Part shown: positions 3,317-38,158 of the stretch, piece by piece | Numbering within the stretch: position 1 is the first letter of the stretch | Layout: each line of letters opens with the position of its first letter | From: Treponema sp. | GTDB taxonomy: Bacteria; Spirochaetota; Spirochaetia; Treponematales; Breznakiellaceae | Assembly (NCBI GenBank): GCA_009784975.1 | Contig: WQXG01000028.1 | Span: 1 to 40,102, forward strand | DNA length: 40,102 nucleotides | Reading direction: 5' to 3' | Translations under genes and position numbers: made by a program | Notes under the pieces: generated by a model | What the model was told of the DNA's origin: nothing | The model's input: the letters and a program-made list of their open reading frames with translations, nothing else | The model's database searches: none

Positions 3317-3329
3317 GGTAGCTGCTACC
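3317..3329. repeat. GGTAGC-T-GCTACC palindrome, copy 2
   Basis: A perfect 13-nt odd-centred palindrome, preceded by five A and followed by CCCGACTA. The same arrangement occurs at 2730-2748, so the two form a direct repeat around the AT-rich gene. Read on the minus strand it is followed by TTTTTATTATT and could terminate transcription coming from the right. Confidence 0.6.
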
Positions 3330-3340
3330 CCGACTATAAT

Positions 3341-3616
3341 ATAATAACATTAGCAGTATAAACCATAACAAACTTTTGCAACATGCGTACTTCCTTTGCA
3401 TCAGAACAAAACTTTCCAGCAGCCTTATTAAAATTGCTAATCAAAACCCCCACATCGTACAGGCACTCACAGCAGCGGGATCAGAAAAAACATCTTACGA
3501 AATTCCTCGCTGAAGAGACTTCAAAGAAGGCTCGTAAGCGAATTCCTGAGTAGTTTTTTCTGAGCCCGCTGCCGTGAGCGCCTGTACGGAGAGCGAGTTA
3601 AGCTTATCACTTTTAA
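3341..3616 (-). repeat. Dispersed inverted-repeat element, copy A
   Basis: The core is an inverted repeat at 3457-3587 with 34-nt arms (3457-3490 and 3554-3587) differing at three positions; the outer ends read GTACAGGC and GCCTGTAC. The reverse complement of the core and of both flanks matches 37095-37403 along almost its whole length, including GTGATAAGCTTAACTCGCTC on one side and TTTGTTATGGTTTAT on the other. The core also matches 13880-14017. Orientation is opposite to copies B and C. It is intergenic and has no intact ORF. Confidence 0.85.
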
Positions 3617-9367: not shown

Positions 9368-10705
9368 TTGAAAGATATATCTAACCGGCGCTATTTTATA
9401 GACCCATTCGGTTGTGTAAAAAACCAGGTTGATGCAGAAAACATGATGTCTCTTTTAAACAAAGCGGGATATGAAAACACAACTGATGCCGAAACAGCAG
9501 ATTTAATAATCGTTAATTCCTGCGGATTTATAGAAAGCGCAAAACAAGAATCCATTAATGCGGTTCTTGAATGGCGCAAGCATTATCCGGAAAAAAAAAT
9601 ACTTCTTGCAGGCTGTCTTGCACAACGTTATGCGAAAGATCTCCCGGAAATTTTAACAGAAGCCGATGCTTTTATGGGTGTAGAAGATATAACGCAAATT
9701 GTAAAAAAATCGGCAGGTTTATTAAAACAGCCAGATATCGGATCTGTCTCTGAAATTTCCTCCGGTGAACGCCCGTTGTTATCTTTGCCGGGATCTGCTT
9801 ATGTAAAAATCAGCGAAGGCTGCAGCAATTGCTGCTCTTACTGCGCTATCCCGCTGATTCGGGGCAGCCTTGTCTGCCGCACAATTCCGGATATCACAGA
9901 AGAATGCCGCATGCTTCTTAAACGCGGTATAGCAGAACTAAATATTATCGGGCAGGACATCGGGGCATTTTGTTCAGAAGAAGACGGAGGCTCCGGACTG
10001 CCGGAATTATTAAATGCAATTTCTGCGCTCGAAGGAGATTTTTGGGTTCGCTTGCTTTATATTCACCCCGATCATTTTCCTTTAAAGATACTTGATGTTT
10101 TGGAAAGAGATAAACGTTTTCTGCCGTACTTTGATATTCCTTTCCAGCATTCATCATCCAAAATACTAACTGCCATGAACAGAAAAAATTCAGCGCAAGC
10201 AAACCTTGCGCTGCTGGAAACTATCCGCAGCCGCCTGCCGAATGCGGTTATCCGTTCAACTTTTATGCTTGGCTTCCCCGGAGAAACAGAGGAAGATTTT
10301 GCAGAGCTGCTTGATTTTCAGCAAAAAGCAAACCTGGACTGGCTGGGCTGCTTTGTATATTCACGGGAAGAAGGCACATCAGCGTATTCAATGAAAGGCC
10401 GTGTACCGGCAAAAATTGCAGAAGCGCGCAAACAAAAAATAGAGGAAAAACAACTCGTAATTACAGAAAAAAACATGAAGAGGTTTGTCGGCAGCGCATC
10501 AGAACCGGTATTAATCGAAGAACAGTTCACAGAAGATACCGCTGCTGATACAGAAAAACTTTGGCTGGGACGCGTCTACTGCCAGGCGCCGGACATTGAC
10601 GGCTCAACGGTAATTATCAGCACTGAAGATTTGCAGATTGGCAAATTTGCAAAGTGCAAAATTGTTGCGCGGCGCGGATTTGATTTGGAAGCACACGCTT
10701 TATAA
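9368..10705 (+). CDS. rimO: Ribosomal protein S12 methylthiotransferase RimO
   Basis: A 445-residue radical-SAM enzyme that adds a methylthio group to an Asp of ribosomal protein S12. The N-terminal UPF0004 domain holds the three cluster cysteines (Cys16 in DPFGCVKNQVDAE, Cys52 in NSCGFI, Cys83 in AGCLAQRY). The radical-SAM CX3CX2C is Cys152, Cys156 and Cys159 (GCSNCCSYCAIPLIRG); the IPLIRG context is typical of RimO rather than MiaB. HSSSKILTAMNRK and FMLGFPGETEEDF follow, then a C-terminal TRAM domain from about residue 370. The start is TTG at 9368 with AGGAG about 10 nt upstream. The gene is 28 nt upstream of the helicase gene in a five-gene operon. Confidence 0.95.
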   Translation: MKDISNRRYFIDPFGCVKNQVDAENMMSLLNKAGYENTTDAETADLIIVNSCGFIESAKQESINAVLEWRKHYPEKKILLAGCLAQRYAKDLPEILTEADAFMGVEDITQIVKKSAGLLKQPDIGSVSEISSGERPLLSLPGSAYVKISEGCSNCCSYCAIPLIRGSLVCRTIPDITEECRMLLKRGIAELNIIGQDIGAFCSEEDGGSGLPELLNAISALEGDFWVRLLYIHPDHFPLKILDVLERDKRFLPYFDIPFQHSSSKILTAMNRKNSAQANLALLETIRSRLPNAVIRSTFMLGFPGETEEDFAELLDFQQKANLDWLGCFVYSREEGTSAYSMKGRVPAKIAEARKQKIEEKQLVITEKNMKRFVGSASEPVLIEEQFTEDTAADTEKLWLGRVYCQAPDIDGSTVIISTEDLQIGKFAKCKIVARRGFDLEAHAL

Positions 10706-10733
10706 TCGCACCTTATTCTGTTACAATTTAAAA

Positions 10734-13085
10734 ATGAGCGAAGTTTATGCGCTTCCTGAGCGTCCCCTTCCTGAGCGTGCGCTTCCTGAGCGGCCCCACT
10801 ACCTTGAACCTCTTAACAGCGAGCAGCGGCGGGCTGTCCTTCACACCGGCAAACCCCTGCTGATACTGGCTGGCGCAGGCTCCGGCAAAACAAGAGTAAT
10901 CACCACAAAGATAGCCTGGCTCATCAGGGAGCAGGGATACGATCCGCGTTCAATTTTAGCGGTAACCTTTACCAATAAAGCAGCGAGGGAAATGGCTGAA
11001 CGCGCACGGCAAATCGATGAACGTGCAGGGGATGCAATGCTAAGAACATTCCACTCCTTTGGAGCGTGGTTTCTAAGACGCAACGGAAAACTCGCCGGTC
11101 TTGATTCCGGATTTATCATTTACGATGACAGTGATGTCATTTCGCTGCTTTCCGGCATAATGGAAAACACTCCCAAACCGGAAATAAAACATTTTGCGCA
11201 CAATATTTCACGCGCAAAAGATTATTTTCTCTCCCCGAATGATCCTGAGCTTGCCCTGATTGATCATCAAAAAAAATTCCGCGATGTTTACGCGCGTTAC
11301 GAAGAGCGCATGCTGCAAATCGGCAATGTCGATTTTGGCGATTTAATTAAAAAACCTGTGGAGATTCTCCGCAGTCAGCCGGAAATTGCGCAGCGTTTCA
11401 GGGATCGGTTTTCTGTTATCATGGTAGACGAGTATCAGGATGCAAATGTTGCGCAATTCCACCTGCTCAAGGAATTGTGCGGAGAAAATACCTATGTCTG
11501 CGTAGTAGGCGATGACGATCAATCCATTTATCGTTTTCGCGGCGCAGAAGTAAAAAATATTCTGGAGTTCCCTCATCGTTTTTCCGATGCGGACATTATC
11601 CGCCTGGAACAAAATTACCGTTCCACTTCCCCTATTTTAAAAGCTGCGTCTTCTGTTGTTGACTGCAACCGCGGACGGCTTGGAAAAACCCTTCGCGCCG
11701 AAAAGGGAGACGGTCCTCTTCCCGAACTGGTTTTTCTTGACGATCATAACGCAGAAGCGGTTTATTGCGCAGATAAAATAGAAAAATCTGTAAAGAGCAA
11801 AATAACAGCATGGTCGGACTGGGCAATCCTTTACCGCACCAATGCGCAATCGGCAGTATTTGAAGCATTATTTGTACGCCGGGGAATTCCCTATCGTGTT
11901 GTCGGCTCCTTAAAATTTTATGAACGCGAAGAAATAAAAGATGCGCTTGCGCTTTTATCGATACTTGTAAACCCGCGTGACGAAGTTGCTTTCCGCCGCG
12001 TGGTGAACAAACCGTCAAGAAGCGTAGGACAGGTAACGGTTCACAAAATAATAGAAGCGTCTGTCATTAGCGGAAAAAATCTGCTGGAAACAAGCCGCAC
12101 TCTGGAATGTTCGCAAAAAGCCCGCGCTGGTTTAAACGAGTTTATCAGAGTGATAGAAAATGCCAAATCATTACTGGGCAGCGATATCGCTCCGCTTCCT
12201 GAGCGGGCGCTTCCTGAGCGGGCGCTTCCTGAGCGGGCGCTTCCTGAGCGGGCGCTTCCTGAGCGGGCGAAAGAAAAAAAATCATCTGCAAAAAAAAGCA
12301 CCGGCTTAAAATCCGGCAAAGGACTTTCTATCTGCGCAAAAAAACTTTTAATTGACTCTGGGATTGCCGAATACCATGAAATGCAGGATGAAATATCAGG
12401 CAATTCAAAAACAGGCAATTTACAGGAATTGTTAAACGCAGCAACAGATTATCCCAACACTCAGGAAGGATTGCTTGATTTTCTGGAACACATCGAACTG
12501 GATCGTTCCATGAAAGATGATATAAAAAACAATAATGACAGCACCGTCACATTAATAACTTTTCACAACACCAAAGGTTTGGAATTCAAACGTGTAATAA
12601 TGACAGGTCTTGAACAAGGTGTCTTTCCAAGAGAAGATAAAAAAGACGAAGAACTTGAAGAGGAACGCCGTTTGTTTTACGTCGGCGCAACCCGCGCTAT
12701 GGATGAGCTTTACTTTACATCATGCAAGCAACGGCTGATGTTCGGAAGGATCATGCCAATGGAACCGTCTTTGTTTATGCAAGAAATAGACAAGGAATGT
12801 TTAAGCGGAAACCGCCCAAAAAAAGCGCCGTCAGTGCAGCCAAAAACATTCAATTCGTTTAATTTACAAAGTTCTTCTTTGGAAAGAGCAAGACTTGAAG
12901 AAAGATCCGGATGGCGCAGAGGACAGCGGGTTTTCAATGACGCTCACGGTTACGGCGCAGTAATGGAAGTAAAAGACAGCGAAGACGGTCCTGTAGTACA
13001 CGTTCGTTTTGAAAACGGGCACGAAAAACTTTTTTTAAGCGACTATCAGGGCGGCGCTTATGAAAAAATAGGAGACGATGCATGA
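10734..13085 (+). CDS. pcrA: UvrD/PcrA-type superfamily 1 DNA helicase with LPER repeat insertions
   Basis: A 783-residue ATP-dependent 3'-5' helicase for repair and replication restart. The start is the ATG at 10734; the upstream extension overlaps rimO and is not conserved in type. Motifs in order: Q-motif LNSEQRRAV, Walker A AGAGSGKT (46-53), Ia TFTNKAAREM, II VDEYQDAN, III GDDDQSIYRFRGA, IV EQNYRST, V TFHNTKGLEFKRV, VI RRLFYVGATRAMD, and a C-terminal PcrA-type beta domain (GYGAVMEVKDSEDG). Two arrays of the pentapeptide ALPER are inserted: three at residues 7-21 before the Q-motif and five from residue 488 in subdomain 2B. Both keep the frame and avoid the motifs. No clear Shine-Dalgarno. 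The stop overlaps the next start (ATGA). Confidence 0.95.
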   Translation: MSEVYALPERPLPERALPERPHYLEPLNSEQRRAVLHTGKPLLILAGAGSGKTRVITTKIAWLIREQGYDPRSILAVTFTNKAAREMAERARQIDERAGDAMLRTFHSFGAWFLRRNGKLAGLDSGFIIYDDSDVISLLSGIMENTPKPEIKHFAHNISRAKDYFLSPNDPELALIDHQKKFRDVYARYEERMLQIGNVDFGDLIKKPVEILRSQPEIAQRFRDRFSVIMVDEYQDANVAQFHLLKELCGENTYVCVVGDDDQSIYRFRGAEVKNILEFPHRFSDADIIRLEQNYRSTSPILKAASSVVDCNRGRLGKTLRAEKGDGPLPELVFLDDHNAEAVYCADKIEKSVKSKITAWSDWAILYRTNAQSAVFEALFVRRGIPYRVVGSLKFYEREEIKDALALLSILVNPRDEVAFRRVVNKPSRSVGQVTVHKIIEASVISGKNLLETSRTLECSQKARAGLNEFIRVIENAKSLLGSDIAPLPERALPERALPERALPERALPERAKEKKSSAKKSTGLKSGKGLSICAKKLLIDSGIAEYHEMQDEISGNSKTGNLQELLNAATDYPNTQEGLLDFLEHIELDRSMKDDIKNNNDSTVTLITFHNTKGLEFKRVIMTGLEQGVFPREDKKDEELEEERRLFYVGATRAMDELYFTSCKQRLMFGRIMPMEPSLFMQEIDKECLSGNRPKKAPSVQPKTFNSFNLQSSSLERARLEERSGWRRGQRVFNDAHGYGAVMEVKDSEDGPVVHVRFENGHEKLFLSDYQGGAYEKIGDDA
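10752..10796 (+). repeat. 15-bp LPER repeat array 1 (3 units)
   Basis: Three units of CTTCCTGAGCG plus four variable bases at 10752, 10767 and 10782, in frame as LPERP, LPERA and LPERP at the helicase N-terminus. Confidence 0.9.
12195..12269 (+). repeat. 15-bp LPER repeat array 2 (5 perfect units)
   Basis: Five identical copies of CTTCCTGAGCGGGCG in frame, encoding five LPERA. Their identity, compared with the divergent first array, indicates a recent expansion. The site is in the 2B region of the helicase, just before a Lys/Ser-rich linker. Confidence 0.95.
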
Positions 13086-13870
13086 AACTGCAAATACCAT
13101 CAGTGTTACGCGCAAGAGGTTACCGGCTTTATCTAGCCAACGGCAAACGTTTAATCGATCTTTGGCTTAACGGCGGCGCTGCAATCATGGGGCACACTCC
13201 GCCTAATCTTCTGCGGGAACTTAAAAACACCGCCAGCCGCGGTCTCTATGCACCCTTCCCTCATTTTACAGAAGCCCGTTTTTTAAAAGCCCTTTCCAAA
13301 CTTTTACCCGGCTGCAACTTCCGCCTCTACGCTTCGCCGCCCCCTGAACTTGTCTCGCTCTTTAACAGCGGCAAAGCCAAAATCTGGCGGCCTTTCACAA
13401 CCCCTGACAGCAATTCAATTATAATACCCGTGCTGCCCGGCATCAGCCTATGGCGTAATGAATTACCTTTTGGGCTATGTATAGCATGCGCGCCTGAAAC
13501 ACTGCTTCAGCCTCTGTTTGAACAATTACCGGAAAGCGACCGTCTTCCTCCAATTCTGCTCGCTGTTGCGGCACGCGGTGTGCACGACATCCTCGCCGCG
13601 CCGGAACGTTTTGCGCCGGCAAGCGCTTTCCCGCGCATTGCCAAAGTGCTGAAACAAGCGGATAATCCCTGGCATCAAAACGGCATTTACCTTGAATTAA
13701 AAAACAAACCTTCCGGAGAAACGGCGATGCAGCTTGCAACGTGGGACAATCTCTTTCAAAAATTCCTTAACGCGGGGTTTTTACTGCCGCCTGCTCCGGC
13801 ACATCCGTTGATTTTGCCGGGGGAGCTTTCTGTGGGAGAAGAGACGAAGTTGGCAGAATTGCTAAAATAG
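13082..13870 (+). CDS. Degenerate class-III-aminotransferase-like protein
   Basis: A 262-residue protein. Residues 8-50 look like the N-terminus of class III PLP aminotransferases (RARGYRLYLANGKRLIDLW, then GGAAIMGHTPPNLL). The central PLP-binding core and the catalytic Lys segment are absent; typical family members have about 400-450 residues. The C-terminal third (NPWHQNGIYLELKN) looks like the small domain. It therefore probably has a structural or ligand-binding role rather than transaminase activity; a heavily shortened enzyme is possible. The start ATG overlaps the helicase stop (ATGA), so translation is likely coupled. The last codons (from 13853) are also the left end of inverted-repeat element B. 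Confidence 0.6.
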   Translation: MKLQIPSVLRARGYRLYLANGKRLIDLWLNGGAAIMGHTPPNLLRELKNTASRGLYAPFPHFTEARFLKALSKLLPGCNFRLYASPPPELVSLFNSGKAKIWRPFTTPDSNSIIIPVLPGISLWRNELPFGLCIACAPETLLQPLFEQLPESDRLPPILLAVAARGVHDILAAPERFAPASAFPRIAKVLKQADNPWHQNGIYLELKNKPSGETAMQLATWDNLFQKFLNAGFLLPPAPAHPLILPGELSVGEETKLAELLK

Positions 13871-14044
13871 ACTGCACTTCGCACAGGCGCTCACGGCAGC
13901 GGGCTCAGAAAAAACTCCTCAGGAACTCGCTTACGAGCCTCTCGCTACGCTCGGTCTCTACAGCGAAGAATTTCGGAAGATGTTTTTTCTGAGCCCGCTG
14001 CCGTGAGCGCCTGTGCGGAATGGACTATAATTTAGCAATTCTGC
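13853..14044 (+). repeat. Dispersed inverted-repeat element, copy B
   Basis: The core has perfect 36-nt arms (13880-13915 and 13982-14017). The symmetry continues outward to GCAGAATTGCTAAA at 13853-13866 and its complement at 14031-14044, so the arm takes in the last codons of the preceding gene. The interior matches copies A and C but carries a different central block (CTCGCTACGCTCGGTCTC). In RNA it would fold into a hairpin of almost 200 nt directly after the operon. Confidence 0.88.
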
Positions 14045-15434: not shown

Positions 15435-15514
15435 AATTGAATTGAATTGAATTGAATTGAATTGAATTGAATTGAATTGAATTGAATTGAATTGAATTGA
15501 ATTGAATTGAATTG
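15435..15514. repeat. Pentanucleotide microsatellite (AATTG)16
   Basis: Sixteen perfect AATTG units without interruption, 129-208 nt upstream of the lipoprotein start at 15306. The unit length is not a multiple of three and the repeat is perfect, so the length is probably variable between cells. Confidence 0.97.
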
Positions 15515-16731: not shown

Positions 16732-16760
16732 TTGAAGAAAAGTCCAAAATACACTATAAT
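16732..16760 (+). promoter_or_regulatory. Promoter of the repeat-lipoprotein gene
   Basis: TTGAAG at 16732-16737, spacer of 17 nt, perfect TATAAT at 16755-16760. Transcription would start near 16767, leaving a leader of about 55 nt that contains a GTCCAG...CTGGAC hairpin and a G9 tract. A possible TTG start at 16760 lies inside the -10 box and cannot be translated from this promoter. No other feature is seen between 16520 and 16731. Confidence 0.75.
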
Positions 16761-16797
16761 TGTGTAGAAGGTCCAGCCTGCGGATAGTCTGGACTGC

Positions 16798-16806
16798 GGG
16801 GGGGGG
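16798..16806. repeat. G9 homopolymer in the leader of the repeat-lipoprotein gene
   Basis: Nine G lie 16 nt before the ATG at 16823, between a leader hairpin and the AAGG Shine-Dalgarno, and are followed by ACCCCAAGG, which could pair with the G run and hide the ribosome site. Confidence 0.9.
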
Positions 16807-16822
16807 ACCCCAAGGCGGCTTG

Positions 16823-18790
16823 ATGAAAAATAAAAATATTAAATTATTTTTATTACTATTAGTTTTAATTTCCTCGCTTACCTGCAAAGGCTCTCCGCCT
16901 GTGCAGGAGGAGCAAATTGATACAGCCGTCAGCAGGGAGAGTGAACCTCCCGATCCCTTTGCCCTTAGCGAACTGGATGCGGCTGCCGCCCGCGCCAGAG
17001 CCGCACAGCAGCAGGCTGCGGACTTAAACAGCCAGCTCTTGTTTCCTGTGGATTATCAAATTATTACCTCTTATTTTCTTGTGACAGAAAGGCAGGTTAT
17101 GACTTCCACACTTAGGGAGACTCAGGAAACAACAGCGCGTTATTATGCGATGGCTGCGGCTTTTGAAGCGCTTAATATTAAAACCCTGATTACGTATTCA
17201 ACTGCGGAGCAGGAAGAATCTGTTATGTGGAATACTGCATCCAGATACCGAGCCGAGATTCAGCAGGCTGTAGAAGTTACCGCTTCTTACTCTGTTCCGG
17301 AAACTCACGAAGTGAAAGAAGTGGCAACTCTGGAAGCAATCGAAGAGGACGAAATCGCCTATCAGGAAGCCCTGGCATTGGCGCCCACACCCCGTCAACG
17401 GACTGAGACGGCTGCTACCACGCAACAACAACAACGTACTGAAACTGCCGCCACCACGCAACAACAGCAACGAACTGAGACCGCTGCCACCACGCAACAA
17501 CAACAACGAACCGAGACCGCCGCCACCACGCAGCAACAACAACGTACTGAAACTGCCGCCACCACGCAGCAACAGCAACGGACTGAGACAGCCGCCACCA
17601 CGCAACAACAGCAACGTACTGAAACAGCTGCCACTACGCAGCAACAGCAACAAACTGAAACTGCTGCCACCACGCAACAACAGCAACGTACTGAAACAGC
17701 TGCCACCACGCAACAACAGCAGCGGACTGAAACAGCCACCACAACGCAACAACAGCAGCGGACTGAGACGGCTGCCACCACGCAGCAACAGCAGCGGACT
17801 GAGACGGTTGCCGCCACGCAACAACAACAACGTACTGAAACTGCTGCCGCTACGCAGCAACAGCAACAAACTGAGACAGCTGCCGCCACCACGCAACAAC
17901 CTCAGCGGACTGAGACAGCCGCCACCACGCAACAACAGCAACGGACTGAAACCGCCGCCGCCACGCAGCAACAGCAACAAACTGAAACTGCCGCCACTAC
18001 GCAGCAACAGCAGCAGACTGAAACTGCCGCCACCACGCAGCAACAGCAGCGGACTGAAACCGCGGCTACCACGCAACAACAACAACGGACTGAAACTGCT
18101 GCCACTACGCAGCAACAGCAACAAACTGAGACTGCTGCCGCCACCACACAACAACAGCAGCGGACTGAGACGGCTGCCACCACGCAGCAACAACAACGTA
18201 CTGAAACAGCTGCCACTACGCAGCAACAGCAGCGGACTGAGACTGCTGCCGCCACGCAACAACAACAACGTACTGAAACTGCTGCCGCCACGCAGCAACA
18301 GCAACAAACTGAAACTGCCGCCACCACGCAGCAACAGCAACGGACTGAGACCGTTGCCACAACGCAACAACAACAGCAAACTGAAACGGCTGCCTCTACG
18401 CAACAGCAACAGCGAACTGAGACGGCTGCCACTACGCAGCAACAGCAGCGGACTGAGACTGCTGCCGCCACGCAGCAACAGCAGCGGACTGAGACAGCTG
18501 CCACCACGCAGCAACAGCAGTGGACGGAGACTTTTCCCATGCAGCAACCTCAGCGAATTGAGGCGGCTGCCGTTACGCAGCAATTTCAGCGAATTGAAGC
18601 TGTTTCCGTAACACAACAGCCTTTGCAGATTGAAGCATCTCCCATAACAGTTGAAACTGCTGCCGAAATTGAAGCTGCTATCATTACAGATAAGCCCGTG
18701 AGCAGAATTTTAATTGTTTCGATAATTGGTCTTGTTACAGCAGCAGGCGCCGCATCAATCGTATTAATGAGAAGAAAAAAATCTACCTGA
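16823..18790 (+). CDS. Gln/Thr-rich repeat lipoprotein with C-terminal membrane anchor
   Basis: A 655-residue protein. The ATG at 16823 (AAGG 9 nt upstream) gives a lipoprotein signal MKNKNIKLFLLLLVLISSLT with Cys21. Residues 30-190 are a helical, Ala/Gln-rich domain (AAAARARAAQQQAADLNSQL; AMAAAFEALNIKTLITYST). Residues about 193-570 consist of about 32 copies of a 12-residue unit, consensus RTETAATTQQQQ, with three diverged units after them (QRIEAAAVTQQF). A single membrane helix (ILIVSIIGLVTAAGAASIVL) and a basic RRKKST tail close the protein. A lipid at the N-terminus plus a C-terminal helix with a cytoplasmic basic tail would fix both ends to the inner membrane, leaving a periplasmic loop. 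The 3' end overlaps the converging gene by 8 bp. Function unknown; structural or adhesive roles are guesses. Confidence 0.85.
   Translation: MKNKNIKLFLLLLVLISSLTCKGSPPVQEEQIDTAVSRESEPPDPFALSELDAAAARARAAQQQAADLNSQLLFPVDYQIITSYFLVTERQVMTSTLRETQETTARYYAMAAAFEALNIKTLITYSTAEQEESVMWNTASRYRAEIQQAVEVTASYSVPETHEVKEVATLEAIEEDEIAYQEALALAPTPRQRTETAATTQQQQRTETAATTQQQQRTETAATTQQQQRTETAATTQQQQRTETAATTQQQQRTETAATTQQQQRTETAATTQQQQQTETAATTQQQQRTETAATTQQQQRTETATTTQQQQRTETAATTQQQQRTETVAATQQQQRTETAAATQQQQQTETAAATTQQPQRTETAATTQQQQRTETAAATQQQQQTETAATTQQQQQTETAATTQQQQRTETAATTQQQQRTETAATTQQQQQTETAAATTQQQQRTETAATTQQQQRTETAATTQQQQRTETAAATQQQQRTETAAATQQQQQTETAATTQQQQRTETVATTQQQQQTETAASTQQQQRTETAATTQQQQRTETAAATQQQQRTETAATTQQQQWTETFPMQQPQRIEAAAVTQQFQRIEAVSVTQQPLQIEASPITVETAAEIEAAIITDKPVSRILIVSIIGLVTAAGAASIVLMRRKKST
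17398..18529 (+). repeat. 36-bp coding tandem repeat, about 32 units
   Basis: Units of ACTGAGACNGCTGCCAC and ACGCAGCAACAGCAG type, 36 bp each; two units carry 39 bp (an extra Ala codon). Changes in copy number keep the frame. Because the unit lacks stops in several frames, long but meaningless reading frames occur on both strands here. Confidence 0.95.
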
Positions 18791-37094: not shown

Positions 37095-37403
37095 TTTTAA
37101 AGTGATAAGCTTAACTCGCTCTCCGTACAGGCACTCACGGCAGCGGGCTCAGAAAAAACTACAAGCATCCTTTGGATGCAGGAATTCGCTTACGAGCCTT
37201 CTTCGAAGTCTCTTCAGCGAGGAATTTCGTAAGATGTTTTTTCTGACAGAGTTTACTCTGAGCCCGCTTTCGTGAGCGCCTGTACGATGAGGGGGGTAAT
37301 ATTAACAATCATAATAAAATTACTGGAAAGTTGTTTTCTGATGCAAAGGAACTTCGCACATTTTGCCAAAATTTGTTATGGTTTATGCTGCTAATGTTAT
37401 TAT
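37095..37403 (+). repeat. Dispersed inverted-repeat element, copy C
   Basis: The longest copy. The inverted core runs 37125-37285 and shared flanks reach 37095 and 37403. Compared with copy A it has two extra small palindromes: GCATCC-TTT-GGATGC near 37155-37169, and CAGAG-TTTA-CTCTG at 37247-37260. Same orientation as copy B, opposite to copy A. The left flank GTGATAAGCTTAACTCGCTC is also present as a fragment at 38088. Confidence 0.85.
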
Positions 37404-37486
37404 TTTTTTTATTAGAGCGAAATTCGTACAATGTACATTTTTGATGGGTTAGATGAATTTTGTTTACAGGTAGTTAGTGCTATGCC

Positions 37487-38118: not shown

Positions 38119-38158
38119 CGGCAGCGGCTACCGAAATGCAGTAGCAGCTACCGTTTTT
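38119..38158 (+). terminator. Intrinsic terminator made of two palindrome copies
   Basis: CGGCAGCGGCTAC (38119-38131) and GTAGCAGCTACCG (38141-38153) form a 13-position stem with two mismatches, a 9-nt loop, then five T. Each arm resembles the 13-nt GGTAGC palindrome found at 2730, 3317 and 23518. Confidence 0.6.

Follow-up and report, generated by a model that had tools for sequence, protein, structure and literature searches.

The attC sites of integrons are folded single-strand hairpins in which structure is conserved and sequence is variable; they have a variable terminal hairpin and often lie past a stop codon. MITEs of the ERIC, Correia (NEMIS) and BOX type are modular intergenic palindromes of 100–300 bp that contain no ORF and occur in tens of copies (review PMC10969869). 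REPs measure 20–50 nt and carry an unpaired GTAG or CGTC tag (PMC8266576, PMC3733652); they are recognized as folded single-stranded DNA, and conserved mismatches are needed for this recognition (PMC8266576).

The repeat family described here was examined starting from a single window, meaning the whole 40,102-nt stretch of a Treponema sp. contig (WQXG01000028.1) that was analysed. In common with REPs and REPtrons (TnpA-REP), its members are high-copy intergenic palindromes, but they are 140–250 nt long, with a conserved apex and free arms, and show no association with Y1 genes. Integron attC sites resemble the element in their folded strand, the conservation of structure over sequence, the variable terminal hairpin and the position after stop codons. 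Unlike those sites, the element has no R-box and no IntI-type integrase, and is mostly dispersed instead of forming one cassette array. ERIC, Correia (NEMIS) and BOX-type repeats keep their terminal repeats, whereas this element replaces its arms and keeps its centre, and neither a target-site duplication nor a parent IS was found for it. The telomeric hairpins of Streptomyces, which bear GNA or CTTG caps (PMC7205883), are alike in structure only; they belong to the ends of chromosomes, where telomere proteins bind, and are not dispersed. By analogy, the element most likely works like REP or attC hairpins, yet it lacks the features that would assign it to either class.

Copies in the window and beyond

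Three copies (A, B and C) of an inverted-repeat element had been proposed in the window, and sequence comparison within it confirmed all three positions. Copy C was said to lie in the opposite orientation to copy A, which is borne out by four complementary blocks between A (3338–3616) and C (37096–37406), of 68 nt (99 % complementarity), 67 nt (97 %), 108 nt (79 %) and 48 nt (90 %). Covariance models were built from 27 copies (model R1) and, for the core only, from 82 sequences (model R2). The features are listed below in window coordinates.

3338..3455, + strand: copy A, AT-rich 5′ module, matched by copy C and by others on contigs 61, 1 and 39
3456..3491, + strand: copy A, 5′ arm of outer stem P1 (CGTACAGGC...CAGAAAAAAC), partner 3553–3589
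3485..3558, + strand: copy A, conserved apical core, from alignment A4 of cores and pair counts
3483–3565, + strand: copy A, core match to model R2, 91.5 bits
3553..3589, + strand: copy A, 3′ arm of outer stem P1, from the folding of copy A
3590..3616, + strand: copy A, 3′ tail AGAGCGAGTTAAGCTTATCACTTTTAA, kept in many copies
13853..14044, − strand: copy B, whole palindrome with 63-nt arms, from the inverted-repeat pair
13874–14017, − strand: copy B, hairpin, from the inverted-repeat pair
13875–14019, − strand: copy B, hairpin, covariance-model match of 171.9 bits
37096..37406, − strand: copy C, full-length with two small hairpin inserts (CAGAGTAAACTCTG, CATCCAAAGGATG), from sequence comparison and alignment
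37119–37288, − strand: copy C, match to model R1, 116.9 bits
37962..38117, + strand: fourth, hairpin-less copy, 5′ module joined straight to 3′ tail (GTATAC followed directly by AAAGAGCGAG)

As had been noted, copy A is free of coding sequence, in that no ORF of at least 90 aa overlaps it. Its folding energy lies far below that of dinucleotide shuffles, both as RNA (z −10.9) and as DNA (z −9.2). The inverted arms, originally given as 34 nt, are real, but their length is ~36 nt in copy A and reaches 63 nt in copy B. Copy B shares its central hairpin with copies A and C, its arms are 90 % complementary, and its outer arm overlaps the end of the gene at 13082–13870. The 5′ module of copy A is common to only some copies, the 5′ modules of others being different, whilst the 3′ tail is tandemly repeated together with the 3′ arm in some copies; this unit of ~65 nt follows the hairpin one to three times in L005, L008, L002, L009 (contigs 36, 61, 6) and L035. 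The 5′ module of the hairpin-less copy is 92 % identical to that of a hairpin-bearing copy (contig 64:12060–12184) and its tail matches the tails of hairpin-bearing copies, implying that loss or gain of the whole hairpin has been exact at least once.

Other repeats are present in the window. A short palindrome, GGTAGCTGCTACC / GGTAGCAGCTACC, recurs around copies of the element (3319–3330, 38141–38152 and the flanks of many copies) and is a second small repeat family. A tandem repeat of ~36 nt with more than 30 units occupies 17303–18652, inside the ORF at 16760–18790; a run of AATTG pentamers, possibly a phase-variable tract, lies at 15435–15514; and a 15-nt repeat, CGCTTCCTGAGCGGG, occurs twice in the ORF at 10638–13085 (10737–10793 and 12180–12266).

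Copies are indeed numerous in the genome, as had been expected. Dozens of additional matches came from searching the assembly to which the window belongs at the DNA level, and a covariance-model search with R1 located the element in at least 64 distinct places in the 2.6-Mb genome. Model R2 was positive in 20 of 40 congeneric genomes (termite-gut Treponema genus), with 76 matches here, 46 in G060, 42 in G027 and 15 each in G008 and G001, and also in several further genera of the family to which this genus belongs. Outside that family no element was detected in the order sample (294 genomes) or the phylum sample (393 genomes), both scanned with stricter filters, and one pattern scan of IMG/VR gave no match to the core. 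A core 21-mer was present in public MAG contigs of Treponema sp. Emb289P3bin117, where the sequences correspond to the two best copies found in G034, a congener of the genome analysed here; on this evidence the window probably derives from a Treponema of the termite-gut group. Matches to the 21-mer in Lachnospiraceae, Ignavibacteria and Prolixibacteraceae were taken as chance; the Lachnospiraceae match, the only one inspected, had no hairpin arms. In the searches made, the family is confined to one family of termite-gut spirochaetes. Rfam yielded no gathering-score match in the window except two tRNAs, and five copies of the element gave only sub-threshold microRNA matches. This non-coding hairpin family is therefore apparently undescribed in the libraries searched, and with its many copies, compensatory changes and lack of an Rfam match the original prediction of an undescribed non-autonomous element or structured family stands.

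A conserved hairpin tip with free arms

Elements are 140–330 nt long and contain a palindrome of 140–250 nt with long inverted arms. Read from base to tip, variable AT-rich outer arms lead to a variable GC-rich arm of ~30 bp and often to an A-tract/T-tract pair. The core then comprises a 5′ bulge of 3–4 nt, helix P2, a RYUCY/RYUCY internal loop, helix P3, a GNA/GNA internal loop (both loops being symmetric) and P4 (GAG/CUC); above P4 come an A·G mismatch that never varies and, at the tip, a hairpin that can have any sequence and a length from <10 to ~80 nt. In copy A, the 5′ bulge reads AUCU and is followed by P2, the RYUCY/RYUCY loop, P3 (3507–3511 with 3537–3541), the GNA/GNA loop (3512–3514 / 3534–3536), P4 (3515–3517 with 3531–3533), the mismatch A3518·G3530 and the apical hairpin (3519–3529). 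In other genera the core is retained, but the arms differ and the A-tract is missing.

Compensatory changes, proposed earlier as a check, were abundant. Across 82 distinct cores, two-sided changes were counted in 193 cells compared to 69 in shuffles, and 88.2 % of paired cells were complementary as opposed to 75.9 % in shuffles; relatedness inflates two-sided counts, but when the partner was slid by 1–3 columns, a control that retains relatedness, pairing fell to 25–46 %. In P3 alone, changes were two-sided in 100 cases and one-sided in two. The A37/G54 mismatch and the G27–C63 pair (alignment positions) were invariant in 82/82 cores. The outer arms (30–60 bp) have a median within-copy complementarity of 0.89, whilst the 5′ arm identity between this genome and other species has a median of just 0.50, against 0.43 for shuffled arms. 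About 25 arm types were distinguished at a 70 % cut by average linkage, single linkage having merged most GC-rich arms. Arm sequence is thus free whilst pairing is required, and the conserved part is the structured hairpin tip. The arms had been put forward as the unit with which to search genomes; the unit conserved across the family is instead the hairpin apex (3485–3558 in copy A).

Several copies carry additional sequence. An apical insert with CTGACCAC/GTGGTCAG-like arms and differing AT-rich interiors was seen in L111:1549, L120, L138 and L140, at one and the same position in the apex in three species (G000, G034, G027). Small extra hairpins (CAGAGTAAACTCTG, CATCCAAAGGATG) are inserted in the stem itself in L006, L111, L014, L016 and L060. 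In L196 and L197 (G001), one inner hairpin is found in two outer palindromic contexts, as if the arms had been replaced en bloc.

The folded strand: DNA or RNA

Isolated mismatches in the arms with paired neighbours were counted once per sequence context, a correction that deals only partly with the non-independence of related copies. In these unique contexts, G·U exceeded A·C (66 vs 31), and G·A or A·G greatly exceeded C·T or T·C (63 vs 8). With wide flanks included the G·U excess was weak (90:65), becoming clear only after restriction to the arms. Since each mismatch type becomes its counterpart on the other strand, a duplex or cruciform would show no such preference, and the asymmetry shows, as judged from mismatch types, that selection acts on one folded strand. 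This suggests that the hairpin works as a folded single strand, and it probably moves as one.

The apical hairpins have similar caps though their stem sequences differ. Among 40 distinct short apical hairpins there were 25 GNA triloops, five AAA loops, two CTTG loops and one clear GNRA. GNA and CTTG also cap the telomeric hairpins of Streptomyces, where single-stranded DNA is exposed (PMC7205883), and DNA mini-hairpins closed by GNA loops are described as being of unusual stability (Yoshizawa et al. 1997, as cited in PMC6479982). G·U occurred in just 2/738 cells of P3–P5. Strand-asymmetric mismatches, loop types and scarce G·U together lean towards single-stranded DNA over RNA, with the qualification that G·T and G·A are the better mismatches in RNA too. 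DNA hairpins formed on the lagging strand would be expected to display an orientation bias relative to GC skew; this genome shows such a bias (p 0.002), whereas its relatives do not (p 0.81), a point against the DNA reading.

The main rival to a single-stranded DNA hairpin is that the + strand is transcribed and acts as a structured RNA, either a 3′-UTR or terminator-like element or a reverse-transcribed mobile non-coding RNA. We regard this as a possibility to be taken seriously but well short of probable. The extensive covariation and strong RNA folds are compatible with it, the asymmetric mismatches fit RNA too, and for many copies a stop codon is found no more than 40 nt away. However, in this range 26 stop codons point at the element's 3′ end and 8 at its 5′ end (p 0.003; mechanically called ORFs), so that the mRNA of the adjoining gene would mostly carry the − strand and not the selected + strand. 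RNA-type tetraloops are almost absent, G·U is very rare in P3–P5 and Rfam holds no match. Nor do reverse transcriptase genes track the element, with RVT_1 present in 7/20 element-bearing and 5/20 element-free congeners.

Probable mobility, candidate enzymes and significance

The gene preceding copy B (13082–13870) has a C-terminus that could be aligned in 20 congeners, and in 18 of these no element follows the homologue. In G060, an element of another arm type is present ~12 nt past the stop codon in the same orientation, whilst the G018 sequence breaks off ~100 nt beyond the stop codon, too soon for a full judgement. Six copies in G124 are near-identical for ~250 nt, past which the sequence gives way sharply to unrelated flanks; a check for target-site duplications at these copies found none, this being the only sharply bounded subfamily, as the ends of other subfamilies are vague. 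Insertion is for this reason inferred from presence and absence. The description of the element as MITE-like holds in that it is multi-copy, non-coding and shorter than 500 bp with terminal inverted repeats, but not in other respects, since the arms (TIRs) are variable and the centre conserved, and neither a target-site duplication at the sharp-ended copies nor a parent transposase among Y1_Tnp, RVT_1 and neighbouring genes was found.

With middling confidence, and by analogy with known systems, we favour a reading in which the family is a mobile but non-autonomous element that would function as a folded single-stranded DNA hairpin, like REP/IS200-type ends or integron attC sites. A putative trans-acting enzyme would recognize the shape of the apical core, with the stem merely holding the core in place. 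New copies would settle in intergenic spacers, preferably right behind a stop codon and in antisense orientation to the gene that it ends, and subfamilies with new arms would amplify separately in each species.

The search for an autonomous relative, as envisaged in the original prediction, did not recover a parent transposase amongst Y1_Tnp, RVT_1 or neighbouring genes. Y1_Tnp does not track the element (10/20 element-bearing vs 7/20 element-free congeners) and is absent in G008 and G001 despite 15 element matches in each. A survey of 119 flanking proteins found no protein family in more than four; the neighbours are ordinary, mostly single-copy host genes. A tyrosine recombinase of ~400 aa (Phage_integrase and Phage_int_SAM_4, with an uncharacterized N-terminal extension of ~120 aa) is a possible partner of the element. 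It was present in 14/20 element-bearing vs 8/20 element-free congeners (p 0.11) and, among genomes at least 76 % complete, in 14/16 vs 7/15 (p 0.02, uncorrected for relatedness and for three tests). The gene lies at G000:C23:2145–3347 (L221), with homologues in 21 congeners, usually close to a contig end.

In a further alternative, the element is an attC-like site on which this recombinase acts, within an integron-like system of an unusual kind. Such a system would agree with the folded strand, with the variability of the terminal hairpin, with the location of copies antisense to genes and past their stop codons, and with the distribution of the recombinase; in addition, some copies lie ~1.1 kb apart with toxin–antitoxin or acetyltransferase-like genes between them (L192, L194). 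We nevertheless consider it improbable. No integron integrase scored above the TIGR02249 cut-off in any of the 40 genomes; the recombinase matched the IntI profile below the cut-off in two pieces, with ~55 profile positions skipped where the protein has ~14 residues, and is without ~40 aa of the profile, the IntI-specific stretch. No copy adjoins the recombinase gene, most neighbours are single-copy host genes, and the RYYYAAC and GTTRRRY boxes are missing from the hairpin base, where the bases vary and AT-rich ends, if present, read by eye as GTTAA..TTAAC, in reversed order. Termite-gut treponemes have been reported to be without integrons (PMC3607928). Membership of the integrons was rejected on account of the missing IntI-specific stretch, adjoining element and attC boxes.

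It is very unlikely that the element is a passive palindrome, such as a bidirectional terminator, spread by ordinary duplication with its arms kept alike by template-switch correction. Long arms with U-tracts would suit a terminator, and arm copying would explain the pairing of unrelated arms, but such correction would erase mismatches, yet the internal loops, 5′ bulge and A·G mismatch persist across genera and the mismatches are strand-biased; the conserved unpaired positions led us to disfavour this explanation. Likewise very unlikely is an identity as a REP-type element that a REP-associated transposase of the Y1 (HUH) kind would mobilize. REPs share the single-stranded hairpin logic, high intergenic copy number and post-stop-codon position (PMC8266576), but this reading is contradicted by palindromes of 140–250 nt against 20–50 nt, by ends that differ between copies and show by eye no conserved GTAG/CGTC tag at the base, and by the absence of Y1_Tnp from 10/20 element-bearing congeners.

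Taking the favoured reading of a mobile single-stranded DNA hairpin further, the family could represent a new class in which an enzyme reads the shape of the apical core only and the arms are replaceable, possibly driven by the extended tyrosine recombinase as an independent analogue of attC recombination; we advance this as a tentative and on balance doubtful proposal. In any case, this is a bacterial repeat family that reverses the usual rule, its centre being conserved and its arms free. With more than 100 natural variants of one shape, a shape-reading enzyme, whether of DNA or RNA, could be sought directly. If the functional form is single-stranded DNA, the family would extend the theme of REPs and attC sites to an unrelated structure, and would account for part of the intergenic DNA in uncultured termite symbionts.
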